From positions 1 through 64,000 of the forward strand of contig NZ_LWBP01000145.1 in assembly GCF_002078015.1 (NCBI RefSeq): a stretch of 64,000 nt of DNA. Direction: 5' to 3'. The stretch comes from Niastella populi. GTDB taxonomy: Bacteria > Bacteroidota > Bacteroidia > Chitinophagales > Chitinophagaceae. Shown one piece after another: positions 2,447 through 37,079 of this stretch. Both the position numbers and the translations under genes were made by a program. The notes under the pieces are model-generated. The model saw only the letters and a program-made list of their open reading frames with translations. It was not told the origin of the DNA and searched no databases. Positions within the stretch are counted from its first letter, which is position 1. Each line of letters begins with the position of its first letter.

Positions 2447-3535
2447 CTATTGCTGTGAGAAAAAGTAAATGGCAAGGATAAGCGCCAGCGCCAGTACTAT
2501 TACAATACTTACTTTTACAGGCGATACCGGCTTTTTGCCATAGATTTTTCCTGTTTGTCCGTTTATAAGAAAGTGATACGATTTGTTCTTGTATTTATAA
2601 GAGCAAACCCATAACGGCAACATAATATGTTTGTAGGTTTGACCTTCATACGTGGTATCCACTTCCAGGTCGCGATAGGTATCTATGCGGCAAAGGTTCG
2701 CACATTCGTCATAGATCACCCGTTCCATAAAGTCCTCGGCTTTTGCATATCCATCCTGTACTGCAATGTCATATACATCGGCCTTGAATCCAGATATGTA
2801 CCGGGCGTCGAAGTTCACCAGTTCTTCGAGGTTATAAGGATAAATACTTTCGTATTCGTTTTGTGTTAATTCTGTAGCGCCGCCAATAAGAATGTCGTCG
2901 AAGGCTTGTTCGTAGTTCCCTTCACGATAGATCCATTCCGTTCTTTGTTCCTGCCTGGTGGTTTTGTTGCCATTGGCATCCGTATCACTTACGGTAACAT
3001 AATAATGCCGGCCGCCATAACCGCTCCAGCGGCTATAGGTTTGCGCATCGTAGGTCCAGAAGGGAACATAAATGCCATGCAGTGCATCCTGCCGCGCAAA
3101 CTCTTTGAGGTCGCGGGGCGCCCACCAGCCGTTACCCAGCCAGGTTTTAAAAATTTTGATCGATGATTGCTGATCGACTTTAAAAGGAATAATACCAGCG
3201 GGCTGAACGATGCGGGTTTTATAAGCTACCGGGTTCACTACCTCGAAGTTGCAGAAGCTGCAGACAAAAGTGGGTGTATCGGAAACAAAAACGGTTTGCG
3301 AACCACAGCGATCGCACTTATGTACTTTTTGCTCAATAACAACCGTGGGGTCGCCGGCTTCAGACATTTGCTGGCGCAGGCTGTTTTCCTTAACGCGGTC
3401 GGCGCCATTATCGATAGCTACTTTTACCCCGCAGTATTCACACTCCAGTTGCTGATGCTGTGGGTTGAAATATAATTGTGCTTTGCATCCCGGGCAAGGG
3501 AATAGCAACAGGGAATCTTGTTGTACTTGTTCCAT
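2447..3535 (-). CDS. Membrane-anchored double zinc-ribbon protein (YdjG-like)
   Basis: A 362-residue protein with two treble-Cys zinc ribbons near the N-terminus (CPGC...CEYC about residues 14-36, and CDRC...CSFC about 74-94), a middle region rich in aromatic residues (WTYDAQTYSRWSGYGG) and one C-terminal membrane helix (about 342-359). The ribbons resemble TFIIB/PriA-type zinc ribbons, which is why such proteins are often labelled helicase-like, but no helicase motifs are present. It lies 21 bp downstream of the SPFH gene on the same strand, so the two probably form an operon. The pairing resembles Bacillus ydjG with ydjI, which help anchor PspA at damaged membranes. No PspA gene is next to them here, so the parallel is an inference. 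Confidence 0.75.
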   Translation of the reverse strand: MEQVQQDSLLLFPCPGCKAQLYFNPQHQQLECEYCGVKVAIDNGADRVKENSLRQQMSEAGDPTVVIEQKVHKCDRCGSQTVFVSDTPTFVCSFCNFEVVNPVAYKTRIVQPAGIIPFKVDQQSSIKIFKTWLGNGWWAPRDLKEFARQDALHGIYVPFWTYDAQTYSRWSGYGGRHYYVTVSDTDANGNKTTRQEQRTEWIYREGNYEQAFDDILIGGATELTQNEYESIYPYNLEELVNFDARYISGFKADVYDIAVQDGYAKAEDFMERVIYDECANLCRIDTYRDLEVDTTYEGQTYKHIMLPLWVCSYKYKNKSYHFLINGQTGKIYGKKPVSPVKVSIVIVLALALILAIYFFSQQ

Positions 3536-3556
3536 AAGATGGTCGTAGGGATTCGG

Positions 3557-4567
3557 TTACAGCTTGCCTAAGATCTCGGCTTTCTTTTGGTTGAATTCCT
3601 CTTCCGTGATAACACCGGCTGTTTTCAGGTCACCCAGTTGTTTCAACAGATCGATCATTTTCTGGTGATCGTTGCCGGCAGTAGCATTACCTGCGTTTTG
3701 CTGTTGTTGCGGCTGGGGTTGCGTATTTGCCTGCATCATGTTGTTGAGTAAAATACCGGTTCCCAAACCGCCCATGTTTGCTGCGCCGGGGTTATCGGCC
3801 ATTTTTTCGAGGGCGATACCAGCCTGCATCTGGTTAAACTGGTTTAGTTTGTCGCCCATCATATTCACCTGCGTAGCCTTGTCGAACATTTTTTCCACTT
3901 CTTCAGGCAGGCTCACATTCTCTATATAGAACTGCCCCAGTTCAATACCCCAGGCGTCGAAATCAGTTTGGAAGATGGGTTTTAGTCTATTGCCTATTTC
4001 GGTGAAGTTGGCTGCGAGGTCGAGTACCGAAACACCTGCTTCAGCGAGGCCTTCAGCCAGTTTGCTGGTAATGGCATTACGGCATTGCTCACTGATGGCG
4101 TCTACAGACACCCAGGGGTTGGTGCCGGCAAATTCCTTTATGAACTTTTTGGCATCCTTTACCCTGATGGTATACGTACCGAATGATCTTACACGCACCT
4201 GTTTAAATTCAGGGTCGCGCATGATAATGGGGTTAGAAGTTCCCCATTTCAGATTGGTGAACAGTTTCGTATTGACATAGAAGATATCTACTTTAAACGG
4301 CGATTCGAATAAATACTTCCATGATTTCAGCTGCGTTGTGATCGGCATGTTCTGGGTAGTAAGTTCATGCCGGCCAGGTTTGTATTCATCGCCAAACTCG
4401 CCCTCATTCATCAAAACCACAACCTGTGATTCCCGCACAGTTAACTGGGCGCCGTTCATGATCTGGTTGCCTTTATCGGGAAATTTATAAATAACGGTAT
4501 TGTTGGTGTCATCAACCCAGTCAATAACTTCGATGAACTGGTTCCTGATAAAATCGAATAATCCCAT
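3557..4567 (-). CDS. SPFH-domain protein with C-terminal SHOCT motif (YdjI/virion-core-like)
   Basis: A 336-residue protein. Residues about 20-240 form an SPFH/Band-7 domain (start MGLFDFIRNQFIEVIDW; later VRVRSFGTYTIRV, VSVLDLAANF, WGIELGQFYIENVSLPEEVEKMF). A linker rich in Asn and Gln (about 285-305) leads to a short C-terminal SHOCT-like helix pair (DLLKQLGDLKTAGVITEEEF). No membrane helix is obvious, so attachment to the membrane probably depends on partners. It is first of a two-gene unit with the zinc-ribbon protein downstream. In Bacillus the YdjI relative recruits the phage-shock protein PspA; here the role is inferred from this family resemblance only. Confidence 0.82.
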   Translation of the reverse strand: MGLFDFIRNQFIEVIDWVDDTNNTVIYKFPDKGNQIMNGAQLTVRESQVVVLMNEGEFGDEYKPGRHELTTQNMPITTQLKSWKYLFESPFKVDIFYVNTKLFTNLKWGTSNPIIMRDPEFKQVRVRSFGTYTIRVKDAKKFIKEFAGTNPWVSVDAISEQCRNAITSKLAEGLAEAGVSVLDLAANFTEIGNRLKPIFQTDFDAWGIELGQFYIENVSLPEEVEKMFDKATQVNMMGDKLNQFNQMQAGIALEKMADNPGAANMGGLGTGILLNNMMQANTQPQPQQQQNAGNATAGNDHQKMIDLLKQLGDLKTAGVITEEEFNQKKAEILGKL

Positions 4568-5091
4568 ATACTGTTGATTTTAGGAGTTGGTCGAAATTGG
4601 TTGTTTATTTATTCACTCAATTAGTAGTGAAACCTGGAAGAAAATTACGCTAATCTGTTTAAGAATTACAATACAGGCGAAAATTAAATGGAAGTATTTG
4701 ATAATGTGAGTAATTTTTGATCTTTGCCAGCCTTTCTACCCTAAACTCTGGCCAAAACGGGGGCATTTACTATTGCGTGCAATTTGCTAAACAGGATATC
4801 TTTAACACTTAAGATAAAAACCTGTCCGAATGAGAAAAGTTATACAACGAAAAAGTAATACGACGTAATTGCTTCAATGAAAATATAGCCATAGGTATAT
4901 AGCTGTTACGTAACGTTCCCTCCCCAACAAAATGTACAGCGGGTACCTGCCACTGCAAGTCGGGCGCTAATGAAATCCTTCTTCATGATGCCATTCGGGC
5001 AAGCTGTTTCCTGGTAAAATACCATGAACAGGCACTGTATGCACATTCCCCAACACGAGCTTTCATTTAACCATTAAAAATCGAGTGTATT
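4568..5091. other. Intergenic region between divergent genes
   Basis: A 524-bp gap that must hold the promoters of the leftward SPFH gene and the rightward protease gene. I see a perfect 10-bp palindrome, GTTACGTAAC, at 4905-4914, about 178 bp before the protease start, but nothing I can assign. No RNA gene or convincing reading frame was found. Confidence 0.4.
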
Positions 5092-7902
5092 ATGAAAAAA
5101 CTGTCATTATTGCTATCCGGCCTGCTGCTGCTTGGCATGGCCGGCTATAGCCAGGTAAAACCGGTACTACTGGGCCGGGCTACCGATGTGCTATCGGATC
5201 TTCGCAAACAAATTAACACAACACCTCAACAGCGTGTTACGGGTCGTTTGATGTTGCGTGTTACCGCTGCATATTCACTGCCCGGAAAGGTCAACTTCCG
5301 CCAATCTTCAGCTGCCGGTAACGAATACCTTGTTGGAGAAATAGAAAATGTGCCCGGTTCTTCTTTTTTTATTCGTATTGAAGGCGGGAGGGCAGAAGGC
5401 AATATTATTTTACGCCGAACAAAGAGGGCATTTGTTTATTCTTCAGACAATGACGGCAATATTTACATTACTGAAACGGATATACAGAAGGTGTTGTGTA
5501 TCGATTATGAAAAAGCGCCTTCAGCCGCTAAAGTAAGTGCTGCAGCAGCGCTAACCGCCGGTCAGTTATACAGCCTGCAAAGCTTTCCCAACGCCAATGG
5601 TTGTGTGCTGCTCGATTTCGACGGACAATATGTTTCAGGAACCGGTTGGAATGGCGGCAACCCCATCAATGCGGCGCCGGCAACTTTATCAGATGCAGAA
5701 CGGTACGAAGTGTGGCAACTGGTAAGCGAAGATTTCAGTCCGTTCAAACTCAATATCACTACCAGTGAAGCTGTGTACAACAGCTATCCGGCAAACAGGC
5801 GTATGCGTTGCATTTTTACTCCCACCAATACCGCTGCGCCTGGTGCTGGTGGTGTAGCTTACCTGAATTCATTTACCTGGGGCAATGAAACGCCCTGCTG
5901 GGTTTTTAACGGCGGTATTAAAGGCGCCGGTGATGCGGCCTCGCATGAAGTAGGGCATACCTTCGGACTGAGTCATGACGGCAGAACAAACCCCGTTGAG
6001 GAATATTACATAGGCCAGGGCAACTGGGCGCCGATCATGGGCGCCGGTTATTACGAGCCTGTTGTACAATGGAGCAAGGGCGATTATGCCAACTCAAGCC
6101 AAACGCAGGACGACCTGGCTATCATCGGTAACAATGCCAATGGGGTAGGGTTCCGTGCTGACGACCATGGTAACACGAGATCAGCCGCATCAACGGTTTC
6201 CATCAGCAGTACGGGAAGCGCATTTATTGCCGGTAATATCGAAACTACCAGCGATGCCGACTTTTTTACCTTTACAACAACTGGCGGCGCGGTTTCTTTG
6301 AACATCGCTCCGGCAACAAAACATCCCAACCTCGATGTGCTGGCTATTTTGTACGATAACGCCGGAAATGTGCTCGCCACATCGAATCCTGATGGTTTAA
6401 ATGCGACATTGAGCGCAACGCTTTCTGCCGGTACGTATTTTATCTCCGTTACAGGTATCGGGTCCGGCGATCCGGCCACTACCGGTTATACGAACTATGG
6501 CTCGCTGGGGTATTATGCCATCAATGGTTCAGTTGCCGGTGGAACCGCCAATGCGGTAACTACTTTTTATAAGGATTGTAATTATACCGGAAGTTATTCC
6601 ATAAGCCTGGCACCCGGGGCATATACCGTTGCTGACCTTGTGGCCAGTGGCATTATTGATAAGGACATTTCTTCCTTTACCGTTAACAACGGTTACGAAG
6701 TGTTGCTGTATAAGAACAATGCATTACAGGGCAGCTACACCAGCTTTACAGCCAATACGGCCTGTTTGGTAAGTTTTGGATTGAACGATTCAACTTCATC
6801 GCTGCGCATCAGGTCGCTTACGAACCAGGCGCCAACGGTTAGCTTCCTGAAACCGCTGGCAGGCGCTCAATACCTGGCACCAGCTACTGTTGCCATTACC
6901 GTAAACGCAGCCGACTACGACGGAACTATCAGCAAAGTGGAGTTCTACAACGGCGGTACAAAACTGGGTGAAGCTACAACCGCGCCATTTGCCTACAACT
7001 GGACCAACGTGGCAACCGGTTCTTATGTTATTACTGCTGTTGCAACCGATGACCGCGGCTCGCAGTCTTCTGCACAGGTAGCGGTAACAGTTACCAATAC
7101 GCCTGTTGCAACCGTTTATAGGAATTGCAGTTTCGGCGGCACCGCTGTTGGCTTACTGCCCGGTAGTTATACATTAGGCCAGTTACAAAGCGTGGGTATC
7201 CTCAATGATGATATTTCTTCCTTACGCGTAACAAATGGGTACCAGGTTGAATTATTTGCCGACAACAACTTTGCCGGAACTTCTGTTGTCATTACGGCCG
7301 ATAATAGCTGCCTGGTGGCAAACAATTTCAATGATCTTACTTCTTCCCTTAAGATCAGTGCCATAGGCGCTATATCAGCAGCTACAGTATATAAAGATTG
7401 CAATTATGGCGGCTATGCAATAGCGCTTGCCCCCGGAAATTATACACTAAGCCAGTTACAGGCGTCAGGTATTCTGAACGAGGATATTTCATCATTGAAG
7501 GTGAACAGCGGTTACCAGATCCAGTTATTTGCCAATGATAATTTTACGGGTAATTCGCAATCGTTCAGCACTGACAACCCATGCCTGGTTACCCATGGCT
7601 TCAATGACGTTACAACATCCCTCAAAGTGTTTGCGGTAGCGCCGGTGAAACCACAGCCTGGGTTAATCACTGGTATTTCCGGTTTGCAGGTATATCCAAA
7701 TCCCGTACTTAACGAGCTAAGGTTCCGTAGCGAACAGGACCTTACCGGTGCGCTGATAAAAGTGTACGACTTTTCAGGAAGAGAAGTATTGCAGGCGAAG
7801 AATGTGAACAACAGCCTGAATGTTTCTAAACTGACTTCAGGTTTGTATATAGTAACAGCGGTGAAGAACGGTAAAACGATTACCGGAAGATTCATTAAGT
7901 AA
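5092..7902 (+). CDS. T9SS-secreted metzincin-type protease with PPC, Ig-like and three beta-gamma crystallin domains
   Basis: A 936-residue secreted protein. Residues 1-21 are a signal peptide ending in YSQ. A zinc protease core carries HEVGHTFGLSHD at 285-296 (metzincin HExxHxxGxxHD; His285, His289 and His295 bind zinc, Glu286 is catalytic) and a downstream Met-turn candidate at PIMGAG (Met316). About 360-478 looks like a pre-peptidase C-terminal (PPC) domain and about 580-668 an Ig-like domain. Three beta-gamma crystallin domains (about 491-573, 674-755, 763-848) carry N/D-N/D-x-x-S/T-S calcium motifs such as NDSTSS (565), NDDISS (705), NDLTSS (747) and NDVTTS (838). The last 70 residues (VYPNPVLNELRF...) are a type IX sorting domain. 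It is transcribed alone and ends before a hairpin terminator. The substrate is unknown. Confidence 0.9.
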   Translation: MKKLSLLLSGLLLLGMAGYSQVKPVLLGRATDVLSDLRKQINTTPQQRVTGRLMLRVTAAYSLPGKVNFRQSSAAGNEYLVGEIENVPGSSFFIRIEGGRAEGNIILRRTKRAFVYSSDNDGNIYITETDIQKVLCIDYEKAPSAAKVSAAAALTAGQLYSLQSFPNANGCVLLDFDGQYVSGTGWNGGNPINAAPATLSDAERYEVWQLVSEDFSPFKLNITTSEAVYNSYPANRRMRCIFTPTNTAAPGAGGVAYLNSFTWGNETPCWVFNGGIKGAGDAASHEVGHTFGLSHDGRTNPVEEYYIGQGNWAPIMGAGYYEPVVQWSKGDYANSSQTQDDLAIIGNNANGVGFRADDHGNTRSAASTVSISSTGSAFIAGNIETTSDADFFTFTTTGGAVSLNIAPATKHPNLDVLAILYDNAGNVLATSNPDGLNATLSATLSAGTYFISVTGIGSGDPATTGYTNYGSLGYYAINGSVAGGTANAVTTFYKDCNYTGSYSISLAPGAYTVADLVASGIIDKDISSFTVNNGYEVLLYKNNALQGSYTSFTANTACLVSFGLNDSTSSLRIRSLTNQAPTVSFLKPLAGAQYLAPATVAITVNAADYDGTISKVEFYNGGTKLGEATTAPFAYNWTNVATGSYVITAVATDDRGSQSSAQVAVTVTNTPVATVYRNCSFGGTAVGLLPGSYTLGQLQSVGILNDDISSLRVTNGYQVELFADNNFAGTSVVITADNSCLVANNFNDLTSSLKISAIGAISAATVYKDCNYGGYAIALAPGNYTLSQLQASGILNEDISSLKVNSGYQIQLFANDNFTGNSQSFSTDNPCLVTHGFNDVTTSLKVFAVAPVKPQPGLITGISGLQVYPNPVLNELRFRSEQDLTGALIKVYDFSGREVLQAKNVNNSLNVSKLTSGLYIVTAVKNGKTITGRFIK

Positions 7903-25260: not shown

Positions 25261-25983
25261 CTACTGTTGTATTACCGATCCTGAACCGGAAATATGTTTT
25301 GAAACCGTTGGCGAGCCTTTATAAAAAATAGTACCGCTGCCCGAGATATTTGCCTGCAGGGTTTGCGTGGCGAATAAACTGATATTACCTGAGCCCCTGA
25401 TGCTGGCGTCTGCATCTTTTACCATAATACCTGTTATATTCATCAGGCCGCTGCCGCTGATACTTACATTGGCTTCATTGGCGCTTCCACTGCTAACGTT
25501 GATATGTCCCGACCCGTCGATAGCGGCATTTACTTCTGAAGTGGTGACGTTTTTCACCTTAATGCTGCCCGAGCCCTCCACGCGCAAATGCAAATTGGCC
25601 GGGGTAATGGGGTTCGATGTTTCGATGTAACCCGAACCATCTACATTAAACGAACGTACGTCGGGACCGCTCACAAATATTGAAATGCCATCATTTGTCC
25701 TGAGCCGGGTATCGGAATGACGCAGGCGGATGGTCAGGTTGTTATTGATAACCGTGGTTTCAATTTCATCGAGGATGTTCTCCTGCGCATGCAGCTCCAC
25801 CTTAAACACGGAATCCTGGGTGAAATAGGTGTCGGCCGGAACTTTAAGAACGAGTCCATCAAAAGAAGCTGTATTGCGGCTTTCGATAACGACGGGGCCT
25901 TTACCTGTTACTTTTTTGCATGATGTGGACGACGAAACAACGAATAACAGCATTACGCAAAGTGCTAAAGGGAAATTTTTCAT
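25261..25983 (-). CDS. Head-GIN (DUF2807) lipoprotein
   Basis: A 240-residue protein; ATG 25983 opens a signal (MKNFPLALCVMLLF...STSC, lipid Cys). The body is a DUF2807 'head GIN' domain: a right-handed beta-helix built from short repeats with Gly-Ser-Gly turns, visible here as DGSGYI, EGSGSI, DGSGHI, SGSGLM, RGSGNI, SGSGTI and SGSGSV at intervals of about 20 residues. Family members are surface or periplasmic adhesin-like proteins of unknown role. It lies 52 bp downstream of a TonB-dependent receptor on the same strand, so the two are probably cotranscribed. Confidence 0.88.
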   Translation of the reverse strand: MKNFPLALCVMLLFVVSSSTSCKKVTGKGPVVIESRNTASFDGLVLKVPADTYFTQDSVFKVELHAQENILDEIETTVINNNLTIRLRHSDTRLRTNDGISIFVSGPDVRSFNVDGSGYIETSNPITPANLHLRVEGSGSIKVKNVTTSEVNAAIDGSGHINVSSGSANEANVSISGSGLMNITGIMVKDADASIRGSGNISLFATQTLQANISGSGTIFYKGSPTVSKHISGSGSVIQQ

Positions 25984-26035
25984 GGTGAAATGTTTGAAAA
26001 TAATAAATGAATGTCGCCGGCAGGGCAGGGCTTGT

Positions 26036-28369
26036 TTACCACTCAACTTTGTAGTTCAGTACGGGTATAATGCCGTTCTGATAGTTGGTGATGGTTGTGT
26101 TTTTCAAAAGATCGTAATCCTGGTTAAAGATGTTTTTACGGTTGATCACATTTTGAATATCGAGCGACAGGGTACTGGTCAACCGCTGCCGGTTCCATTT
26201 TATGCTGAACCGGCAATCGGGGCGGAAATAGGCCGCATTCTGTAAACTATAGGCTTCTTTTTCTTTATAAATAGTATATCCTTCCTGTTGCGATGCGGGC
26301 AGATCGATAGGCGTTGTTCTGTAGCCGCCTGAATAAATGACCTTGAAATTTATTCCCAGCACGCGTTTTTGTCCGGCAAGCGGAAATTCTTTTCCTGCTA
26401 CCGCATTGAAAAGGTAATTTCCATTGAAACGGGTGTTCCTTTCCACGCCATCTGCAGCGGTATATTTCGATTGATACAGGGAGCTGTTCACTGTATAATA
26501 GAAATTGTGATCGAGGTATTTCTCCAGGGTAAGTTCAATACCGTAATTTCTGCCTTTGCCATTATTGGTAAGCGGATCGGTTACGAATTCGTTCTGGATG
26601 TTGAGGGTGGAAAATGTTTTATTGGCGTTTACGGTTACCGGTACGTTATACAATTGCTGATAGTATATTTCAGCTTTTGCCCGTAAGCGATGACCCACCA
26701 GCCGGCTATAGGATAATACGAAATGATGCGCTTTGGTAAGATCAATAAATTTGTTGGGGTTGGTGTTACCGGCGTCTTTGGCAAAGTAAACGCCGAGTGC
26801 CTGCAACTGGCTGTGTAAACCATAACCAAAGGCAAGTGAACTTTTATTGTCGGGGTCCCATTTAACCGAAGCTCTAGGCTCTGCACTACCGGTGTTATTA
26901 TATAAAAGCGCGAGGTAATGCATGCCAAGGTTGAACGTAAGGTTATTGTACGGTTTGTATTGCCATTGAATATATGCCTGTACGGTTTGCGTATTGCCCG
27001 AAGTGTTTATGGTTTCGAGCAGCGGTGCATTCTGGTTTTCTTTGGAAAGTTTGTAATACTTAAAGAAAATGAAATTCACATAGGCGCCGGCACGGAATGC
27101 ATTACTGGCATTTACCTTATGGTTGAGGGTAGAAGATACCAGGATCTTTTTGGTGATGTAATTGTCTTTGTAATTGTCTACAACAAGTTTGCTGTTCTCG
27201 GCATACAGCTCATTGAACTTATTGGCGGTGTAGGAAAAGGCAAGCGCCGATTTCAGTGTGGTTTGATCATCGACGGGAATAGTATGCGTGATGCCGGTAG
27301 CGCCGGTATTAGCTACAAATTTACCGGCGTACCGGTCATCCTGCATTTCCCATTTAGAACTATCGGTTTCAATGTTTTGATTTTGCGAGCTAAGCCCGCC
27401 GAAACCAAACACAGTAAAAGTTCCTTTGTTTTTAGTTGGTATATATATGTTGTACGAAAGATCCTGAAAATTGGTTGTGCCTTCAGCGAGGTCAAGTCCC
27501 ATCTTGTTAAGCAGCGATAAAGTTGAATACCTGTAATTCACCAGCCATGAGCCTTTATGCGATGCCGATAGCGGCCCCTCGGCAGCAGCGTTCAGGCCCA
27601 ATACACCTGCCTGCAGCGCATACTCCCGTTTTTCATTATTACCTTTCCTGAGTTTGAGATCGAATACGCCGCTTAATGCATTTCCATATTCGGCGGCAAA
27701 TGCGCCGGTTAGAAAATCGCTGTTGGCCAGGAGTTGAGAACTTAGGATGCTGATACCGCCGCCGCTGCTGCCTGCTTCACTGAAGTGATTGGGGTTAGGA
27801 ATATCAACGCCTTCCATGCGCCATAACAACCCGGTTGGCGCATTTCCCCTGATCACAATTTCATTACCGCCGTCATCGGCGCTGGCCACGCCGGCAAAAC
27901 CGGTAACCATTCGCAACGGATCATTCACCGCTGCCGCATATCGTTGAGTTTCTTCAACCGTAAATGCACGGGCGCTTACAACGCTCATATCGTTGAGTGG
28001 CCTGTTCTTTTTGCTTCCGGCGGTAATTACGACCGCTTTTTCTGTTTTAACCCTGGTTTCCATTGCAATAGTGAGCACTACTTCCTTACCGGTATTAACT
28101 ATAATGTTACTGGCAACGGCATCGTTATAATTGATGTGTGAGATCACAAGCGTATAGGTGCCCGCAGCCATATTGGGTATTCTGAAATTACCCATGGAAT
28201 CGGCAACTATTTTTTTATCGGTGCCGGTAATGATCACTGTTGCGCCGGCTACCGGTGTTTGAAGCAACTGGTCGGTAACCGTGCCTCTGATGGTTTGCGT
28301 TAACTGCCCCATAGCCGTGAGGCCATATAGCATACCTGCTATAAGCAAAGTGAACAATTTGTTGCTCAT
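26036..28369 (-). CDS. TonB-dependent receptor with CarboxypepD_reg-like domain
   Basis: A 777-residue outer-membrane receptor. ATG 28369 opens the signal peptide (MSNKLFTLLIAGMLYGLTAMGQ). Residues about 25-105 form a CarboxypepD_reg-like domain (IRGTVTDQLLQTPVAGATVIITG), about 120-230 the plug (VSARAFTVEETQRYAAAVNDPLRMVTGF...IVIRGNAPTGLLWRMEGVDI), and the rest a beta-barrel ending in NYKVEW with a C-terminal aromatic residue. It lacks an STN domain, so it should not signal to an anti-sigma factor. Cargo is unknown. The head-GIN gene follows; upstream lies a block of 61-bp repeats. Confidence 0.92.
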   Translation of the reverse strand: MSNKLFTLLIAGMLYGLTAMGQLTQTIRGTVTDQLLQTPVAGATVIITGTDKKIVADSMGNFRIPNMAAGTYTLVISHINYNDAVASNIIVNTGKEVVLTIAMETRVKTEKAVVITAGSKKNRPLNDMSVVSARAFTVEETQRYAAAVNDPLRMVTGFAGVASADDGGNEIVIRGNAPTGLLWRMEGVDIPNPNHFSEAGSSGGGISILSSQLLANSDFLTGAFAAEYGNALSGVFDLKLRKGNNEKREYALQAGVLGLNAAAEGPLSASHKGSWLVNYRYSTLSLLNKMGLDLAEGTTNFQDLSYNIYIPTKNKGTFTVFGFGGLSSQNQNIETDSSKWEMQDDRYAGKFVANTGATGITHTIPVDDQTTLKSALAFSYTANKFNELYAENSKLVVDNYKDNYITKKILVSSTLNHKVNASNAFRAGAYVNFIFFKYYKLSKENQNAPLLETINTSGNTQTVQAYIQWQYKPYNNLTFNLGMHYLALLYNNTGSAEPRASVKWDPDNKSSLAFGYGLHSQLQALGVYFAKDAGNTNPNKFIDLTKAHHFVLSYSRLVGHRLRAKAEIYYQQLYNVPVTVNANKTFSTLNIQNEFVTDPLTNNGKGRNYGIELTLEKYLDHNFYYTVNSSLYQSKYTAADGVERNTRFNGNYLFNAVAGKEFPLAGQKRVLGINFKVIYSGGYRTTPIDLPASQQEGYTIYKEKEAYSLQNAAYFRPDCRFSIKWNRQRLTSTLSLDIQNVINRKNIFNQDYDLLKNTTITNYQNGIIPVLNYKVEW

Positions 28370-28453
28370 GGGTTGGTTGTTTGGTATTGTGACAACTAAG
28401 TAAAATGTTACCCCTATAGTAGTTTTTAGAATTTTTTTATAGAAGTGTGAAAT

Positions 28454-28862
28454 GAGGATGTAGCTACAAGCTACAAGCTGCAAGCTGCAAGCAAATACAG
28501 AGAACAGCCGAAAGGCGAATACAGCTGCACGCTACAAGCTGCAAGCCGCAAGCAAATGCAGGGAACAGCCTAAAGGCGAATACAGCTGCACGCTACAAGC
28601 TGCAAGCCGCAAGCAAATACAGGGAACAGCCGAAAGGCGAATACAGCTGCACGCTGCAAGCTGCAAGCCACAAGCAAATACAGGGAACAGCCTAAAGCCT
28701 AAAGCAAATACAAATACAGTTGCAAGCGAATACAGCCGAACGCTGAAAGGCGAAAGCGAATACAGAATACAGCTGCAAGCTACACGCTGCAAGCTCCAAG
28801 CGAATACAAAATACAGCTGAGCCGAAATCGAATACAAGTTAAAGCCTAAAGCGAATACTGTA
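28454..28862. repeat. 61-bp tandem repeats made largely of heptamers
   Basis: Three near-identical units with a period of exactly 61 bp (the motif GGCGAATACAG recurs near 28514, 28575 and 28636), followed by more degenerate units. Inside a unit the sequence steps by seven: GCTACAA, GCTGCAA, GCCGCAA, GCAAATA. An inverted copy of the block lies at about 56481-56750. Long frames that cross this block have no protein character. Confidence 0.85.
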
Positions 28863-29006: not shown

Positions 29007-30131
29007 TTAAAGGAAACTAATCCCTGCCGTCCAGCCAACCCAGCCGGTGACATTGCTATGCCAGAGCTCGAATGAGTTATAACTATCATCGGGTACCAGG
29101 AATTTGTATCCTTTAACAGCTTCGGGCTGATCTGAATAATAAACGTTGAACGCCGGGCCGGCAAAAAGCGCGATTCCCTTTGCCAGTTTGAAGTTGGCCA
29201 GTACCTGAAACCTGCTCAACTGGTTTATATAATTCCAGTTACCGAGGTACAGGTATTGTGTAGTAAGTTCGGGGTTAACGGTGAACCATTTGGCCATCTT
29301 CATTTCATGCCCGATGCCATAACCGTAGGAAAAGATCTTATCGTCATTCCCTGCATTGACGCCCACCATAAGAATATTGTACAGTTTGGCATTACCCGAT
29401 TTGATGGCAAGGTTAACGTTCAGTACTTCGTTGGTGCTTACAGCTATCTTGTGATATCCTTTGCGAACGATGTTCAGCAAACCGATGCTATATCCGCTGG
29501 AGGTATCGGCAATATTGATAAGGCCCAGCTGAAATCCTTTTAAGTGTTTGGTGTAGTTGACTATGCCTGCTATCTGAGCGCCGTTGGTAGTTTTGTTATT
29601 GATGTTGGCTATACCTGCCAGTTGTAAACCTTTTACCGATTGCCCGGTGTAGTTGCAAATGCCGGCATATTGTGCGCCTGTAACGCTTCCTGAAACCTGG
29701 TTGTACAAACCGGCCAGTTGTAAACCACGCACATTCCCTTTCACATAGTTCATGAGGCCGCCGTATTGAGCGCCTGTGAGGTTGCTTTTATCACTGTTGA
29801 ACATCCCTGCCATTTGTAAACCGTTCACATTGCCCCTGGTGATATTGAAAAGCCCTGCATACTGAACGCCCTGCATGCGTTTCGTGTTTATATTGAACAG
29901 GTGACCGAGCTCAACGCCATTTATGCCGCCGGTCATTCCGCCGAATAAGTTCAATGAAAAGTAGCTGGTAGTAATGGAATCTTTTTTACCCTGCGTACTG
30001 ATGCCGGGTATAACTCCGATGCGTACAGGTGTATTTATATTTGGTGGTAGACTGTTATTTGATTGCGCAGATACAACACTTTTCAACACAAGGCAGGCCC
30101 CAAGGCATACTGCAATTTTCCCATTTATCAT
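29007..30131 (-). CDS. Surface protein with eight 16-residue repeats and a barrel-like C-terminus
   Basis: A 374-residue protein with a signal peptide ending VSAQ. Residues about 72-199 are eight successive 16-residue repeats of pattern G-x-Q-x-x-G-x-x-N-x-x-x-x-x-x-x (for example GLQLAGLYNQVSGSVT and GLQMAGMFNSDKSNLT). About 220-374 is beta-rich with alternating aromatic residues and ends GWVGWTAGISFL, an outer-membrane-barrel-like terminus with a large hydrophobic last residue. The repeats resemble those of LA_2272-type surface repeat proteins. It is a shortened paralog of the neighbouring STN protein, 70 bp downstream of it, and probably in the same operon as the sigma/FecR pair. Confidence 0.78.
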   Translation of the reverse strand: MINGKIAVCLGACLVLKSVVSAQSNNSLPPNINTPVRIGVIPGISTQGKKDSITTSYFSLNLFGGMTGGINGVELGHLFNINTKRMQGVQYAGLFNITRGNVNGLQMAGMFNSDKSNLTGAQYGGLMNYVKGNVRGLQLAGLYNQVSGSVTGAQYAGICNYTGQSVKGLQLAGIANINNKTTNGAQIAGIVNYTKHLKGFQLGLINIADTSSGYSIGLLNIVRKGYHKIAVSTNEVLNVNLAIKSGNAKLYNILMVGVNAGNDDKIFSYGYGIGHEMKMAKWFTVNPELTTQYLYLGNWNYINQLSRFQVLANFKLAKGIALFAGPAFNVYYSDQPEAVKGYKFLVPDDSYNSFELWHSNVTGWVGWTAGISFL

Positions 30132-30201
30132 AGAAATATAATTTGCAGTATGACACCTGAGCGAAATTGTTCCCCTATGTTATATGAATAAAAACTGTGT
30201 T

Positions 30202-32274
30202 TTAGAAAATGCTGATGCCAACATTCCAGCCTATCCATCCTTTGACGTCATTGTCCCACAATTCAAAAGTGTGATAACCCGGTGCAGGTATATCGATGTT
30301 GTTGGCAGGCCCGGCTTTTGTTTGTTTTTGATAATATGCATTGAAAGAAGGGCCGCCGAAAATGGAGAAGTACCTGCCTATTTTGAAATTGAATTGTAAA
30401 TGGAACTTACCCAAAGTGTTTGAGTTTGATTCATCATCGTCTTTTTCTTCGCCGTCATCGATAAAAAGATGCTGGGCTGTAAACTCGGGATTGATACTGA
30501 ACCATTTTGCGATGGAAAATTCATGGCCCAATCCGTAACCGAATGAAAAAATTTGTGATGTATCTGAATCCCAGTCGTTCGATGAGGTTCTTCCATAGCC
30601 GGCGAGCAGGATGCTGTATAGTTTGCTGTTGCCGGTTTTGAAAGCGACGTTGTATTTCAATACTTCATTCGTAGAGAAGGCTAATTTATGATAGCCTTTG
30701 AAAACGATATTGATGATGCCAATACTGTAACCGGCCGAGGTGTCGCATACATTGATAAGGCCGATCTGCACACCCCGTAATTTTTTGGCGTAATTGAACA
30801 TGGTTCCAATTTGTGCACCGCTCATTTCGCGATTGGCAAAATTGCCGATAGCCGAGAGCTGCGCACCGGACACTTTTTTGTGGGCGAAGTTTACAATAGT
30901 AGCTGCCTGCAAACCGAATACACTGTCGTAGCAAACATTATGGATATTACTGAGCTGCAGCCCGATAAGTTTGCCTTTTACGAAGTTGGAAATGTTACTG
31001 GCCTGTATACCGGTAAACGATCCGGATACGTGATTGTGAATAGCGCTTAACTGAACGCCGGTAAAATCGCCTTTTACATAACTGGCTATACCTGATGCCT
31101 GCAAACCGGCAACATTACCATGAACATGATTATATATTCCGCTCGCTTGTACCCCGGTAACGGAACCTTTTATAAAGTTGGAGATGCCGGCTGCCTGAAA
31201 ACCGTTTACATCGTGTAATACGTGGTTGTGAACACCGGTGAGTTGAGCGCCTTCCACACCGCCGCCGGTTATATTTAACAAGCCGGCCGCCTGCAAATAT
31301 TTTACATCTTTTTTATTGATATTGAATGCGCCGGCCAGTTCAACACCATTTACCCCGGCGGTATAACCGCCGACGATATTGGCTGAGAAATTGTTGACCA
31401 CCTGTGCGCTTAATTTGCCATGTGTGCTTAAACCGGGTGTTAACGAAACCTGGAAAGTACGGTCGGCAAAGAATTTCTTCAGGTTAATACTTTGAATATT
31501 TTGTTTGGCCGATAACAGGCGTTTGCCCCAGCGGGTTTTTTCTACCTGGTTTACTTCTTCTTTTGCAATGGAAGCGGTTGTAAACGTATCGGTGGGTGGT
31601 TTAACGATGATGGTGTCGGGTAATTCATCTTCAACCGGGCTAATGGTTACCACAGGTTCGCTGGCGATGACGGGGGTCATAACAATGGTTACCTGCTGGT
31701 CGAATTTGGGTTGAATAAGAACGGTGGTATCTTCAAACATTTCCCGGCTTATGGTAAGCGTTGCTGTGCTGTACCGGCTTTTCAGTTTTATTTTGAAATA
31801 GCCTTTGTCGTCAGACATGGTTGAAACCAGCCGTTTTTTTTCATAAATGGTCACATTGCCCACCTTTTCACCGGTTTCACCATTCAGAACGATTCCGGAA
31901 ACCGTATACAGTTTTTCGGGAGTGGGGGTGGGGTTGGCCACCAGCACAGGGGCGGTTACAGGCGCTTTTCGTAATATTATGTAATTGTTATTTTGTTGCC
32001 ATTTGTACCGGCTGCCGCAAAGCTGATCGAGTATTTGTTTTACTGATCTGTTGTACGCCGAAAATGAGATAAGGCTGTCGCGGGCTATAATACTGCTGTT
32101 ATAGGAGAAATAAAAATTTCCTTTGTTGCTGATCACTTTTAATACATCTGACAAACGTTGGTTATTTGCTTCAATAGTGATCCTTCTATCGAGCACGCCT
32201 TGTGCAAATGAATTCGTACTTATAAGACAAAATAATGCTATGATCGAAGGAAGGGCTCCCCGTAGTTTTGTCAT
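30202..32274 (-). CDS. STN-domain outer-membrane protein with twelve 16-residue repeats, non-TonB receptor candidate
   Basis: A 690-residue protein. ATG 32274 opens a signal peptide (IIALFCLISTNSFAQ) and lies 22 bp after the fecR stop; an upstream ATG would overlap fecR slightly. Domains: STN about 33-103 (ITIEANNQRLSDVLKVISNK), CarboxypepD_reg-like about 121-202 (YTVSGIVLNGETGEKV), a Thr/Pro linker, twelve 16-residue repeats about 310-501 (such as GVQASGIYNHVHGNVA), and a beta-rich C-terminal domain ending GWIGWNVGISIF. Alternate repeats tend to carry NHV and NF, hinting at a 32-residue super-period. In known systems the STN domain contacts FecR from a TonB-dependent transporter; here no plug or 22-strand barrel is present. 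It therefore looks like a signalling receptor of a different build. Confidence 0.82.
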   Translation of the reverse strand: MTKLRGALPSIIALFCLISTNSFAQGVLDRRITIEANNQRLSDVLKVISNKGNFYFSYNSSIIARDSLISFSAYNRSVKQILDQLCGSRYKWQQNNNYIILRKAPVTAPVLVANPTPTPEKLYTVSGIVLNGETGEKVGNVTIYEKKRLVSTMSDDKGYFKIKLKSRYSTATLTISREMFEDTTVLIQPKFDQQVTIVMTPVIASEPVVTISPVEDELPDTIIVKPPTDTFTTASIAKEEVNQVEKTRWGKRLLSAKQNIQSINLKKFFADRTFQVSLTPGLSTHGKLSAQVVNNFSANIVGGYTAGVNGVELAGAFNINKKDVKYLQAAGLLNITGGGVEGAQLTGVHNHVLHDVNGFQAAGISNFIKGSVTGVQASGIYNHVHGNVAGLQASGIASYVKGDFTGVQLSAIHNHVSGSFTGIQASNISNFVKGKLIGLQLSNIHNVCYDSVFGLQAATIVNFAHKKVSGAQLSAIGNFANREMSGAQIGTMFNYAKKLRGVQIGLINVCDTSAGYSIGIINIVFKGYHKLAFSTNEVLKYNVAFKTGNSKLYSILLAGYGRTSSNDWDSDTSQIFSFGYGLGHEFSIAKWFSINPEFTAQHLFIDDGEEKDDDESNSNTLGKFHLQFNFKIGRYFSIFGGPSFNAYYQKQTKAGPANNIDIPAPGYHTFELWDNDVKGWIGWNVGISIF

Positions 32275-32296
32275 GGTTATTAATTCTGCGTGCAAG

Positions 32297-33286
32297 TTAA
32301 CGTAGAATGATCTTTCCTTTTTCTTTGATTACAGAGGTATTAAAAGTTGAGCTAATGATATTCAGAATTTTGTCGAGCGGTTGATTGTCGAAAACAACGG
32401 TATAGGGTTCATTGCGAACCGCCTCGTTTTCGATAACGATCTGCACATCGTATGCTTCATTTAGTTTATCTATCAGCTTCCACAAAGGGGTTGAATCGCA
32501 TACAAATTTTTTACTGCGGTAGTAATTATACAACTGGTCGGTGTTGCTTTGTTTCTGCAGGATGTCTTCCGATAAACCGGTAATGGCCTTCTGGCCCGCT
32601 TTCAGCATTACAGTGTGTTTTCCGGTGGCTACTTTTACAATGCCGGTTTCAACTATCACTTCGGTGGTATCGCCCCGGCTTCTTACGTTGAATGAAGTGC
32701 CTACCACTGTGATGGTCACATTGCCGGTATGTACTTCAAAGGGTTTTTGTTTATTGGGTACTACTTTAAAGAATGCTTCCCCGTTCAATTGCAATACTCT
32801 TTTACCGCTGCTGAATTTTTCGGGAAAAGACACCTGTGAATATTTGTTTAAGGTAACCACTGATCCATCGGGCAGGGAGTCGGCCTTTACCATGTTGGTG
32901 GCCTGGATGGTAGCCATGCGCACTACCGTACCCGGATTGTTATGGAAAAGTACATAGGTGAAAATAGCAATGCCTATGACCAGGCCGGCGATAACGGCTG
33001 CCCGCGTCATGGGGCTGTTCATTGACCATACCCTGGGTTTGGGGTGTTCGAATGAACGCTGTTGAACCCGGTTTTGAAATCGCTGCCAGGCCAGGTGTTC
33101 GTCTACCTGTGTGGTGCCGGCCAGTTGAACGCTTTCTTCCCATATCAGCCTGAAGTGCTCGAAGTAGTGCCTGTTCGCTGCATCTGATGCAAGCCACTGT
33201 TCTACCTGAAGCAATTCCTCTTCCGTAGCCTCACCGGTAAGGTGTTTTACCAGCAGATCGTCCATATGTTGTGTATAGCTTTTCAA
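32297..33286 (-). CDS. FecR-family anti-sigma factor
   Basis: A 329-residue inner-membrane regulator. The cytoplasmic N-terminus (residues 1-95, HLTGEATEEELLQVEQWLA) binds sigma; a single membrane helix lies at about 96-114; the periplasmic part has the FecR domain (LPDGSVVTLNKYSQVSFPE, LNGEAFFKVVPNKQKPFEVHT, VVGTSFNVRS) and a C-terminal DUF4974-type domain (DSTPLWKLIDKLNEAYDVQIV) that normally docks to an STN domain. It follows the sigma gene by 34 bp and precedes the STN protein by 22 bp, so all three are likely one signalling operon. Confidence 0.95.
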   Translation of the reverse strand: MKSYTQHMDDLLVKHLTGEATEEELLQVEQWLASDAANRHYFEHFRLIWEESVQLAGTTQVDEHLAWQRFQNRVQQRSFEHPKPRVWSMNSPMTRAAVIAGLVIGIAIFTYVLFHNNPGTVVRMATIQATNMVKADSLPDGSVVTLNKYSQVSFPEKFSSGKRVLQLNGEAFFKVVPNKQKPFEVHTGNVTITVVGTSFNVRSRGDTTEVIVETGIVKVATGKHTVMLKAGQKAITGLSEDILQKQSNTDQLYNYYRSKKFVCDSTPLWKLIDKLNEAYDVQIVIENEAVRNEPYTVVFDNQPLDKILNIISSTFNTSVIKEKGKIILR

Positions 33287-33320
33287 TAAGGGTAATTTTT
33301 AATAAGTGACATATATATAA

Positions 33321-33872
33321 TTATATGTAGAAAAAGGCTAACATGAATATTGGTAAATAATCGATCAGCTTTACGCGTAATTGTTTCAACGCCTTGCCCA
33401 TCTGGTTCTCTACCGTTTTTACAGATATCCCCAACTGATTGGCGATCTCCTGGTACTTCAACCCGTCGAACCGGCTCATCTGAAAGATGGTACGGCATTG
33501 CTGGGGGAGGGCATTCATGGCATCGCGCAGCTTTTCTTCCAGCTCTTTCACCAGTATTTTCCGGGATGCGCCCTGATCGTTATGGTTATTGGTTTGCTGC
33601 ATAACATGCACCTGGTACCGGGCTTTTATTTTCTGATGCTTCAGATGGTTCAGGCTTTCATGGTAGACCGCTTTGTATAAATATGCTTTGAGCGATGTTT
33701 GAATATTGTCGGGGACCTTCTTCTCCCATATTTTGTAAAAAACGTTCTGCACCGTTTCCTCGGCAATGGATTCATTCTTCAGTATAGTGAAAGCATAGGC
33801 ATACAGGCTTTTAAAATGTTCTTTGAAAAGCTGTTCAAATTCCAGTTCGCTGTCGGCCGACAGCGGCTTCAT
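33321..33872 (-). CDS. ECF RNA polymerase sigma factor
   Basis: A 183-residue sigma-70 family protein of the Bacteroidota FecI-like group. I start at ATG 33872 (MKPLSADSELEFEQLF); the longer frame relies on TTG. Sigma region 2 is FKEHFKSLYAYAFTILKNESIAEETVQNVFYKIWEK, and region 4 is ALPQQCRTIFQMSRFDGLKYQEIANQLGISVKTVENQMGKALKQLR with its HTH. It should direct transcription of its target genes when FecR releases it, and probably its own operon. A 14-bp palindrome lies about 115 bp upstream. Confidence 0.94.
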   Translation of the reverse strand: MKPLSADSELEFEQLFKEHFKSLYAYAFTILKNESIAEETVQNVFYKIWEKKVPDNIQTSLKAYLYKAVYHESLNHLKHQKIKARYQVHVMQQTNNHNDQGASRKILVKELEEKLRDAMNALPQQCRTIFQMSRFDGLKYQEIANQLGISVKTVENQMGKALKQLRVKLIDYLPIFMLAFFYI

Positions 33873-34285
33873 GGTGATGGTTGTATTCGGAATTGCCACT
33901 TTAATGTGTTGATAATCCGCTCCAAATATAATTGCTTCCAATAAGTTTTATCATAAGAGACAACTGAAAGTTATCATACCCCTACGAAACTTTAAAGTTT
34001 TGTTATAACCTGAAGATAAAAACATATACGTTAAAGATAACATGTGTTAATGACGACCGTATTTTTTCATGTCATTTTGTGGAAAAAACAAACGTCCAAT
34101 GCTTGTTTTAACCTTTTTTTGGTATTATTATTGAGCCCAGATGCAGTTGCTTTTAGAATGTACCATACCCCTCACACCGTAGTATACATAATTTAATCCA
34201 ACCGTCCCTCTGAAGCCATTTGTCGTTTCTGTTAGCTAAACGTGTACCTAAAACTTTTCATATGTTGGGATTTCTGCTCGTTTCC
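33873..34285. other. Divergent promoter region
   Basis: About 410 bp between the leftward sigma gene and the rightward coiled-coil gene. It contains the palindrome at 33987-34000 and AT-rich stretches. No gene is seen. I could not place a -7 box convincingly. Confidence 0.35.
33987..34000. promoter_or_regulatory. 14-bp palindrome upstream of the sigma operon
   Basis: AAACTTTAAAGTTT is a perfect inverted repeat. Its position between divergent genes allows an operator role; its AT-rich make-up makes chance plausible. Confidence 0.25.
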
Positions 34286-36248: not shown

Positions 36249-37079
36249 ATGGAGCAATACCTGTCACTTTTAAAGCATATCAAGGAAAACGGTGTATATA
36301 AATCAGACCGCACCGGAACGGGCACTACCAGTTGTTTTGGCTACCAGATGCGTTTTGATCTGCAGCAGGGATTTCCGTTGGTGACCACCAAGAAATTGCA
36401 TCTTAAAAGCATTATTCACGAATTATTATGGTTCCTGAAAGGGGAAACCAATATCAAATACCTGAAAGATAACGGGGTTAGCATTTGGGACGAATGGGCC
36501 AATGAGCAGGGCGAGCTGGGACCCATTTACGGCAAACAATGGCGTAGCTGGGCAACAGGCGGGGGGGCAAAAACCATCGACCAGATCAGTGACGTCATAA
36601 AGCAGATAAAGACCAACCCCGACAGCCGCCGCATGATCGTAAGCGCCTGGAATGTGGCCGAGCTGCCCGAGATGGCGCTGATGCCCTGTCACGTGTTGTT
36701 TCAGTTTTATGTATCTCCTCCTCCGCCAGCTGGCGGAGCTGCCGGGAGACGGCCGCGTTTGTCGTGCCAGTTGTACCAGCGTTCGGCCGATGTATTTTTG
36801 GGTGTTCCGTTCAATATTGCTTCTTACGCTTTGCTCACCATGATGATCGCCCAGGTGTGCGATCTGGAGCCGGGTGATTTTATACATACGTTTGGCGATG
36901 TGCATATTTACAGCAATCATATGGACCAGGTGAACCTGCAGTTGAGCCGCGAGCCGTTTCCATTGCCTGCCATGCAGCTGAACCCCGCGGTAAAAGACAT
37001 CTTTGATTTTAAGTTTGAAGATTTCACCCTGCAGAACTATCAGTGTCACCCGGCGATCAAGGCGCCGGTGGCGGTGTAG
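36249..37079 (+). CDS. thyA: Thymidylate synthase with an in-frame insert
   Basis: A 276-residue ThyA, which makes dTMP from dUMP using methylene-tetrahydrofolate. The folate/nucleotide motifs are intact: [18 protein letters not shown] at the start, catalytic Cys147 in [12 protein letters not shown], the [23 protein letters not shown] core and [12 protein letters not shown]. Residues 156-170 ([15 protein letters not shown]) replace the short turn (about four residues, such as ADGK) found between two strands in other ThyA proteins. That net gain of about 11 residues is encoded by a palindrome-centred insert. The turn is on the surface, so activity may survive. It heads a thyA, S23-like, folA, methyltransferase group. 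A heptamer array starts 6 bp after its stop. Confidence 0.95.
36714..36749. repeat. Palindromic insert inside thyA
   Basis: CTCCGCCAGCTGGCGGAG (36721-36738) is a perfect 18-bp palindrome, extended outwards by imperfect TCTCC/GGAGA arms. It lies exactly where the protein gains extra residues. A related CCGCCA-AC-TGGCGG lies at 60204-60217 after exbD. Confidence 0.8.

Follow-up and report, generated by a model that had tools for sequence, protein, structure and literature searches.

The stretch of DNA analysed here, hereafter the window, comprises 64,000 nucleotides (positions 1 to 64,000) of contig NZ_LWBP01000145.1 from the 8.6-Mb genome of Niastella populi, a bacterium of the family Chitinophagaceae (phylum Bacteroidota). 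It contains a block of genes that, read leftward, encodes an extracytoplasmic function (ECF) sigma factor, a FecR anti-sigma factor, a 697-amino-acid protein with an STN domain, a 374-amino-acid paralog of that protein, a 776-amino-acid TonB-dependent receptor, a DUF2807 protein, and a small protein without a Pfam match. The STN protein, which has the signalling domain of a TonB-dependent transducer but no plug match, is the main subject of this report. All seven genes of the block occur in six of seven named relatives from Niastella and Longitalea, the seventh (L020) being a 5.7-kb contig with part of the block only.

On the minus strand, the sigma frame (33321..33941; first ATG at 33872) matches TIGR02985 with 168.7 bits against a cut-off of 126.4, and the FecR frame (32297..33286) carries a FecR domain (PF04773, E 2e-18) and a FecR_C domain (E 9e-13). 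The STN protein (30202..32295, minus) has 697 residues when counted from a TTG start, although translation more likely begins at Met8 (32274), a residue that does not vary among the aligned proteins; its signal peptide was judged by eye only. From the N-terminus it consists of the STN domain (residues 38–110; 31966..32184), a CarboxypepD_reg-like domain (residues 132–208; 31672..31902), a predicted beta-solenoid of 16-residue repeats (residues 300–531; 30703..31398), and a predicted small barrel (residues 535–697; 30205..30693). The short paralog (29007..30131, minus), recognized by its frame and its match to the LA_2272 repeat, has the repeats and barrel without the STN domain. An earlier note on this DNA had read the same order of sigma, FecR and STN protein, a CarboxypepD_reg-like domain, a barrel-like C-terminus, and a second gene limited to repeats and barrel, all of which are borne out. 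It left unremarked the adjoining plug-bearing, STN-less TonB receptor (26036..28366, minus) and a promoter-like element.

An STN protein without a plug

Domain content was compared among 77 proteins that bear an STN domain by a profile of our own: 18 of 83 family members, 58 of 59 members from other families of the class, and the protein of the window. In this set, the Pfam model CarbopepD_reg_2 is matched by 76 proteins, STN by 55 and FecR_C by nine. None of the 77 has Plug (PF07715) among its family matches at E 0.01. In the window copy, the Pfam STN model is silent and only FecR_C is seen in its place (17.2 bits, below cut-off), while the CarboxypepD_reg-like domain scores 31.2 bits, just under the cut-off of 32.2.

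The STN assignment in the window is derived from an AlphaFold2 model of residues 1–270 (8 alignment rows, mean predicted local distance difference test score, pLDDT, 45.5), in which residues 38–110 form a beta-alpha-beta-beta-alpha-beta-beta block with pLDDT 60–88. The top Foldseek match of this model is DotD (E 7e-4), followed by PilQ, BDI_1681, FpvA, PupA, secretin N0 domains, PupR and FecA (E 0.001–0.1, Foldseek probability 0.97–1.00). Individual comparisons gave TMt 0.70 with the FecA signalling domain (1zzv, E 0.11), 0.71 with PupA (2a02, E 0.017) and 0.60 with PupR (6ovm), and a root-mean-square deviation of 2.0 over 73 columns with the anti-sigma factor BDI_1681 (4m0n). As modelled, residues 38–110 thus have an STN fold that resembles known signalling domains as well as the STN-like domains of anti-sigma factors. 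A hidden plug, which the earlier note had named as a finding that would speak against it, is rejected on the lack of any Plug match among the 77 proteins and of any plug-like part in the AlphaFold2 models.

The C-terminal half of the protein consists of repeats and a predicted small barrel. The repeats themselves are as previously described, but their number is not: eleven 16-mers, rather than twelve, were counted by eye in phase at residues 331–506, with degenerate flanks. They do not constitute a new family, since the NCBIfam model for the LA_2272 repeat (NF047436, cut-off 25 bits) already covers them, with 25.1 bits in the STN protein and 31.3 bits in the short paralog. Repeat chains of 2–11 were found in 143 proteins, compared with 0–2 in 60 shuffled ones. 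In a first AlphaFold2 model (16 rows, mean pLDDT 59.8), residues 1–298 fall below 50, and the block at 300–531 (pLDDT 57–95, at least 80 from residue 341) is predicted as a solenoid in which each 16-residue coil comprises a 7-residue and a 4-residue strand. Strands from 535 to 696 follow, eight of them long by our count, and Foldseek places OmpX (TMt 0.57), NspA (0.55) and Ail (0.51) among the best matches of this part, together with larger porins (best E 7.8e-3). At about 163 residues, this barrel is far from the 22-strand barrel of TonB-dependent transducers.

The earlier note had proposed a signalling receptor class that senses a surface ligand through the repeats. Variation in repeat number by whole units would suit outward-facing repeats that bind such a ligand (two anchors, both found in 87 of the 143 proteins, are spaced 4–7 modulo 16 in 83 of them), and the NCBIfam name of the repeat contains the word “surface”. 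Both termini of the 8-stranded OmpX barrel are periplasmic, however, and here the solenoid lies N-terminal to an OmpX-like barrel and C-terminal to a domain that is necessarily periplasmic. Since the STN domain is periplasmic and the C-terminal barrel looks even-stranded, albeit with a weak match, the solenoid between them is probably periplasmic as well. This topology argues against the surface-ligand model, which we regard as distinctly improbable; the plug-less STN receptor tied to sigma and FecR is the part of the earlier proposal that stands.

Linkage of sigma and FecR genes to the STN gene

The repeat-barrel part is present in 106 of 294 Chitinophagaceae genomes (E 1e-8), representing 47 of 101 genera. 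Loci were taken from 90 of the 105 other genomes, leaving out the 15 weakest matches, and 90 of the resulting 91 family loci, window included, were scored; L066, where the gene is broken near a contig end, was set aside. At the class level, a search at E 1e-10 gave matches in 98 of 395 genomes; 95 of these belong to other families, and loci from 60 of them were taken. In the phylum, 57 of 198 genomes match, and among the matches listed the frames from other classes are all at most 529 amino acids long.

FecR and sigma genes lie directly upstream of the STN gene, on the same strand, at 87 of 90 loci in Chitinophagaceae, and are also found directly upstream of it at 57 of the 60 loci chosen from other families. 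The earlier note had named, as a finding that would speak against it, genomes in which the STN protein is never linked to sigma and FecR; these counts point the other way. Two of the exceptions (L070 in the family and L235 in the class) are loci that end at a contig edge. For comparison, 20 STN-less homologues with repeats and barrel, 12 from other classes and eight from the same class, were viewed in stretches of 7.3–13.2 kb, with an upstream reach of at least 1.3 kb in 17 and under 0.5 kb in the other three; none of the 20 has a sigma factor, FecR or TonB receptor nearby. With 144 of 150 STN loci linked and none of the STN-less homologues, linkage to sigma and FecR therefore follows the STN domain across the sequences compared.

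The genome of the window is rich in genes of this kind (66 FecR-like and 89 sigma-like matched places), which might suggest that the STN protein takes no part in signalling and that sigma and FecR are mere neighbours. Such chance adjacency is rejected on the linkage counts and the STN-less controls and, given also the common promoter-like element described below, is exceedingly unlikely. Co-inheritance is suggested by the one distant locus tried, L179 of another family: its FecR matches the window FecR best among the 66 places (175.7 versus 154.3 bits), and its sigma factor matches the window sigma best among the 89 (154.5 versus 126.3 bits for the next).

A common promoter-like element and its candidate targets

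In an unguided count of spaced word pairs upstream of 144 sigma genes, one set of overlapping dyads stood out: it is present at 78 loci, whereas three block shuffles gave 13 at most. This set also ranks first upstream of 79 TonB receptors (41; shuffles at most 9) and of 57 short paralogs (40; shuffles at most 4). It reads TAGGGGTA-N13-TTGTC. In the window, two exact matches occur against 0.02 expected, one before the sigma gene (33959..33984, minus) and one before the TonB receptor gene (28391..28416, minus). A third site, with two mismatches, precedes the short paralog (30152..30177, minus); it is not beyond chance in the window alone and is backed by the relatives.

Among the loci compared, a relaxed pattern precedes 74 of 143 sigma genes, 41 of 58 paralogs, 44 of 79 dedicated receptors and 22 of 74 DUF2807 genes. 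It is found before 12 of 146 FecR genes, 1 of 148 STN genes, 11 of 800 other genes, and none of the 20 lone STN-less homologues. Of the 12 FecR genes with the element, 11 have it starting 21–42 bases ahead of their frame. Given its position before both, the short paralog and the TonB receptor look like outputs of the sigma factor, which would recognize the element; the earlier note had suggested that the paralog may be a partner or a decoy.

The TonB receptor of the window matches CarboxypepD_reg and Plug in Pfam, with no STN match, and belongs to a dedicated subfamily. Receptor frames of at least 500 amino acids near the loci number 86. Compared with the receptor of the window, 79 of them reach 300 bits or more and seven stay below 100, with none at 100–300. 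The genome of the window holds one comparable paralog, 39% identical, on contig C100, the next match scoring 79 bits. Such a receptor, found at 78 of the 150 scored loci and preceded in 44 of 79 cases by the element, could bind the ligand itself, with the STN-solenoid-barrel protein serving as a signalling adaptor, so that one transducer would be spread over two polypeptides. This division of labour is possible but not likely: at 72 of 150 loci no such receptor is present (within about 7 kb per side at most, some loci being cut by contig ends), the STN protein already includes a barrel, and the receptor is explained equally well as an output only.

The short, STN-less paralog occurs at 37 of 90 family and 21 of 60 class loci. 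A tree of the last 235 residues, subsampled to 107 rows (48 STN proteins, 39 short in-locus copies and 20 lone homologues), requires the STN label to switch 16 times, with no fewer than nine switches forced by starred branches; many deep branches are weak. In L193 and L186 the short and long copies of the same locus are sisters. A single origin of the STN fusion is weakened by this tree, and the pattern fits either gene conversion or duplications that recurred and were accompanied by loss of STN.

The DUF2807 (GIN-domain) gene (25261..25998, minus) is linked in many relatives; members of the gene cluster to which it belongs (two of them Pfam-checked) occur at 58 of the 91 loci in the family and at 16 of the 60 from the class. 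Tandem repeats of 61 bp and 52 bp lie at 28462–28780 of the window, between the paralog and the element of the TonB receptor, and the gap between paralog and receptor is much shorter in L024. Elsewhere in the window, at 36249–37079, a ThyA-like frame has an apparent proline/glycine-rich insertion; the frame was named, and the insertion recognized, by visual inspection of the translated sequence.

Exact sites were also found away from the locus. Judged by the likeness of the sites, one precedes lpxA in all nine genomes searched within the genus, with the gene start seen in seven (L281, L283, L287, L288, L290, L294 and L301) and the gene identified by NCBIfam in two genomes. Another precedes a second TonB receptor, whose CarboxypepD_reg and Plug domains were confirmed in L278, L296 and L300; the site in the window's genome is G000:C197:6749-6774, and five more genomes have sites of similar appearance. 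In L286 and L295, the element stands some 116 bases ahead of the gene for another ECF sigma factor, which may point to a cascade.

The lpxA sites bear on another alternative, namely that the system senses the state of the outer membrane, with mis-assembly or a change of lipid or lipopolysaccharide at the barrel or solenoid freeing FecR. The sigmaE response of E. coli would be its functional counterpart. A transducer without transport parts, one of whose outputs is its close homologue, would suit such a sensor, as would the sites before lpxA. TonB receptors are odd outputs for a stress response, however, and the lpxA data are confined to the genus. The right half of the element also holds TAnnTTTG in five of the seven lpxA sites checked, which weakens lpxA as a sure output; TAnnTTTG is the housekeeping box consensus taken from PMC9723704. 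Overall, a sensor of outer-membrane state seems unlikely.

Proposed signalling and comparison with known systems

The reading that we consider probable is a variant of cell-surface signalling in which a non-transporter STN transducer, FecR and an ECF sigma factor act together, with their own operon, the short paralog and the TonB receptor as outputs. The domains, the missing plug match, the linkage and the common element are computed; from these we infer an outer-membrane location, an STN–FecR contact and its direction, and recognition of the element by sigma. The small C-terminal barrel would anchor the protein in the outer membrane, the 16-residue repeats would form a beta-solenoid, and in the periplasm the N-terminal STN domain would contact the STN-like C-terminal domain of the adjoining FecR. 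A change at the outer membrane would alter this contact and lead to FecR proteolysis, and the freed sigma factor would transcribe from the element before the sigma-FecR-STN operon itself, the STN-less paralog and the dedicated TonB receptor, and in some lineages before a DUF2807 gene or FecR. The input might be outer-membrane state, the receptor encoded next door, or a ligand. In FoxA/FoxR, according to PMC11637429, the signalling domain can shield the anti-sigma factor from proteolysis until a signal arrives, and we propose, by analogy, a contact of this type with a different messenger. The FoxA/FoxR interface is described as a sheet formed between two STN folds.

Several observations weigh against this reading. 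Six of the 77 proteins also score against TIGR04056, the model for SusC/RagA (best E 2.4e-11), presumably due to the common STN/CarboxypepD_reg part. The AlphaFold2 alignments are shallow (16 and 8 rows), the CarboxypepD_reg domain and linker are unmodelled (pLDDT about 30), and the barrel match is weak, with no Foldseek match at E 0.001. The 60 class loci were selected for a long frame. Two loci, L097 and L108, have neither sigma nor FecR despite full flanks (rechecked in 19.5 kb), and L188 and L210 have FecR with no sigma detected. Regarding the element, 69 of 143 sigma upstreams have none, and with up to three mismatches the window has 10 matches versus 14.5 expected. The exact element is rare genome-wide and not in excess (7 sites versus 8 for a reversed control), so the regulon is argued from position and comparison; nine genomes of the genus together hold 65 exact sites, versus 40 in the control.

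A broader extension, which we hold to be rather doubtful, is a Bacteroidota-wide system of outer-membrane homeostasis, in which the solenoid-barrel would report membrane state via STN and sigma would direct synthesis of the STN-less copy, TonB receptors and lipid A (lpxA). That the STN-less copy might be a titrating or replacement form, arisen repeatedly, is a speculative part of the same idea.

Signalling through STN and FecR is generally presented as a secondary function of TonB transporters. Like signalling of the FecA, FoxA or PupB type, the locus combines an adjacent ECF sigma factor, a FecR with FecR_C, and a partner with an N-terminal STN/signalling domain. In contrast to these, the partner has no plug match, a small barrel, and a CarboxypepD_reg domain with a repeat solenoid, and the TonB receptor, which lacks STN, is encoded separately by a gene that carries the promoter-like element as well. 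The protein is thus not a TonB-dependent transducer, for want of a plug match and a large barrel, even though it has the signalling domain, and we think that the system works like cell-surface signalling with a non-transporter transducer. SusC/RagA-type receptors share the STN and CarboxypepD_reg N-terminus and the sigma/FecR neighbours, as seen in the window's genome, but their frames are about 1100 amino acids long and include a TonB receptor body. The LA_2272 repeat and VC2662 families (NF047436 and NF047437) share the repeat unit, whereas their models lack STN and the 20 STN-less homologues lack sigma and FecR.

The same genome holds a second plug-less STN arrangement (L238; G000:C1:512000-521000, about 3247-5825), with an ECF sigma factor, a 195-amino-acid anti-sigma factor that has FecR_C only, and a 501-amino-acid STN protein without another Pfam match. 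Relatives of this last protein occur in 7 of 117 family genomes, its own included.

A common, conserved system of Bacteroidota thus seems to retain the signalling parts with a transducer that lacks the transport parts, which would allow the STN–FecR contact to be studied apart from the transport cycle. A promoter is predicted for the system, along with a handful of candidate outputs, and the LA_2272 repeat fold gains a functional setting. In the parts of the open-licence PMC literature consulted, no description of sigma and FecR with an STN-solenoid-barrel architecture was recognized. The nearest precedent there is VreA of the PUMA3 system (VreA-VreR-VreI) of Pseudomonas aeruginosa, which, according to PMC2729926, is a 23-kDa protein with STN, no barrel, and a TolA/TonB-like C-terminal domain. 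Both are STN-bearing partners that are not TonB transporters; VreA has neither barrel nor repeats, whereas the C-terminus of the window protein is modelled as a solenoid followed by a barrel.

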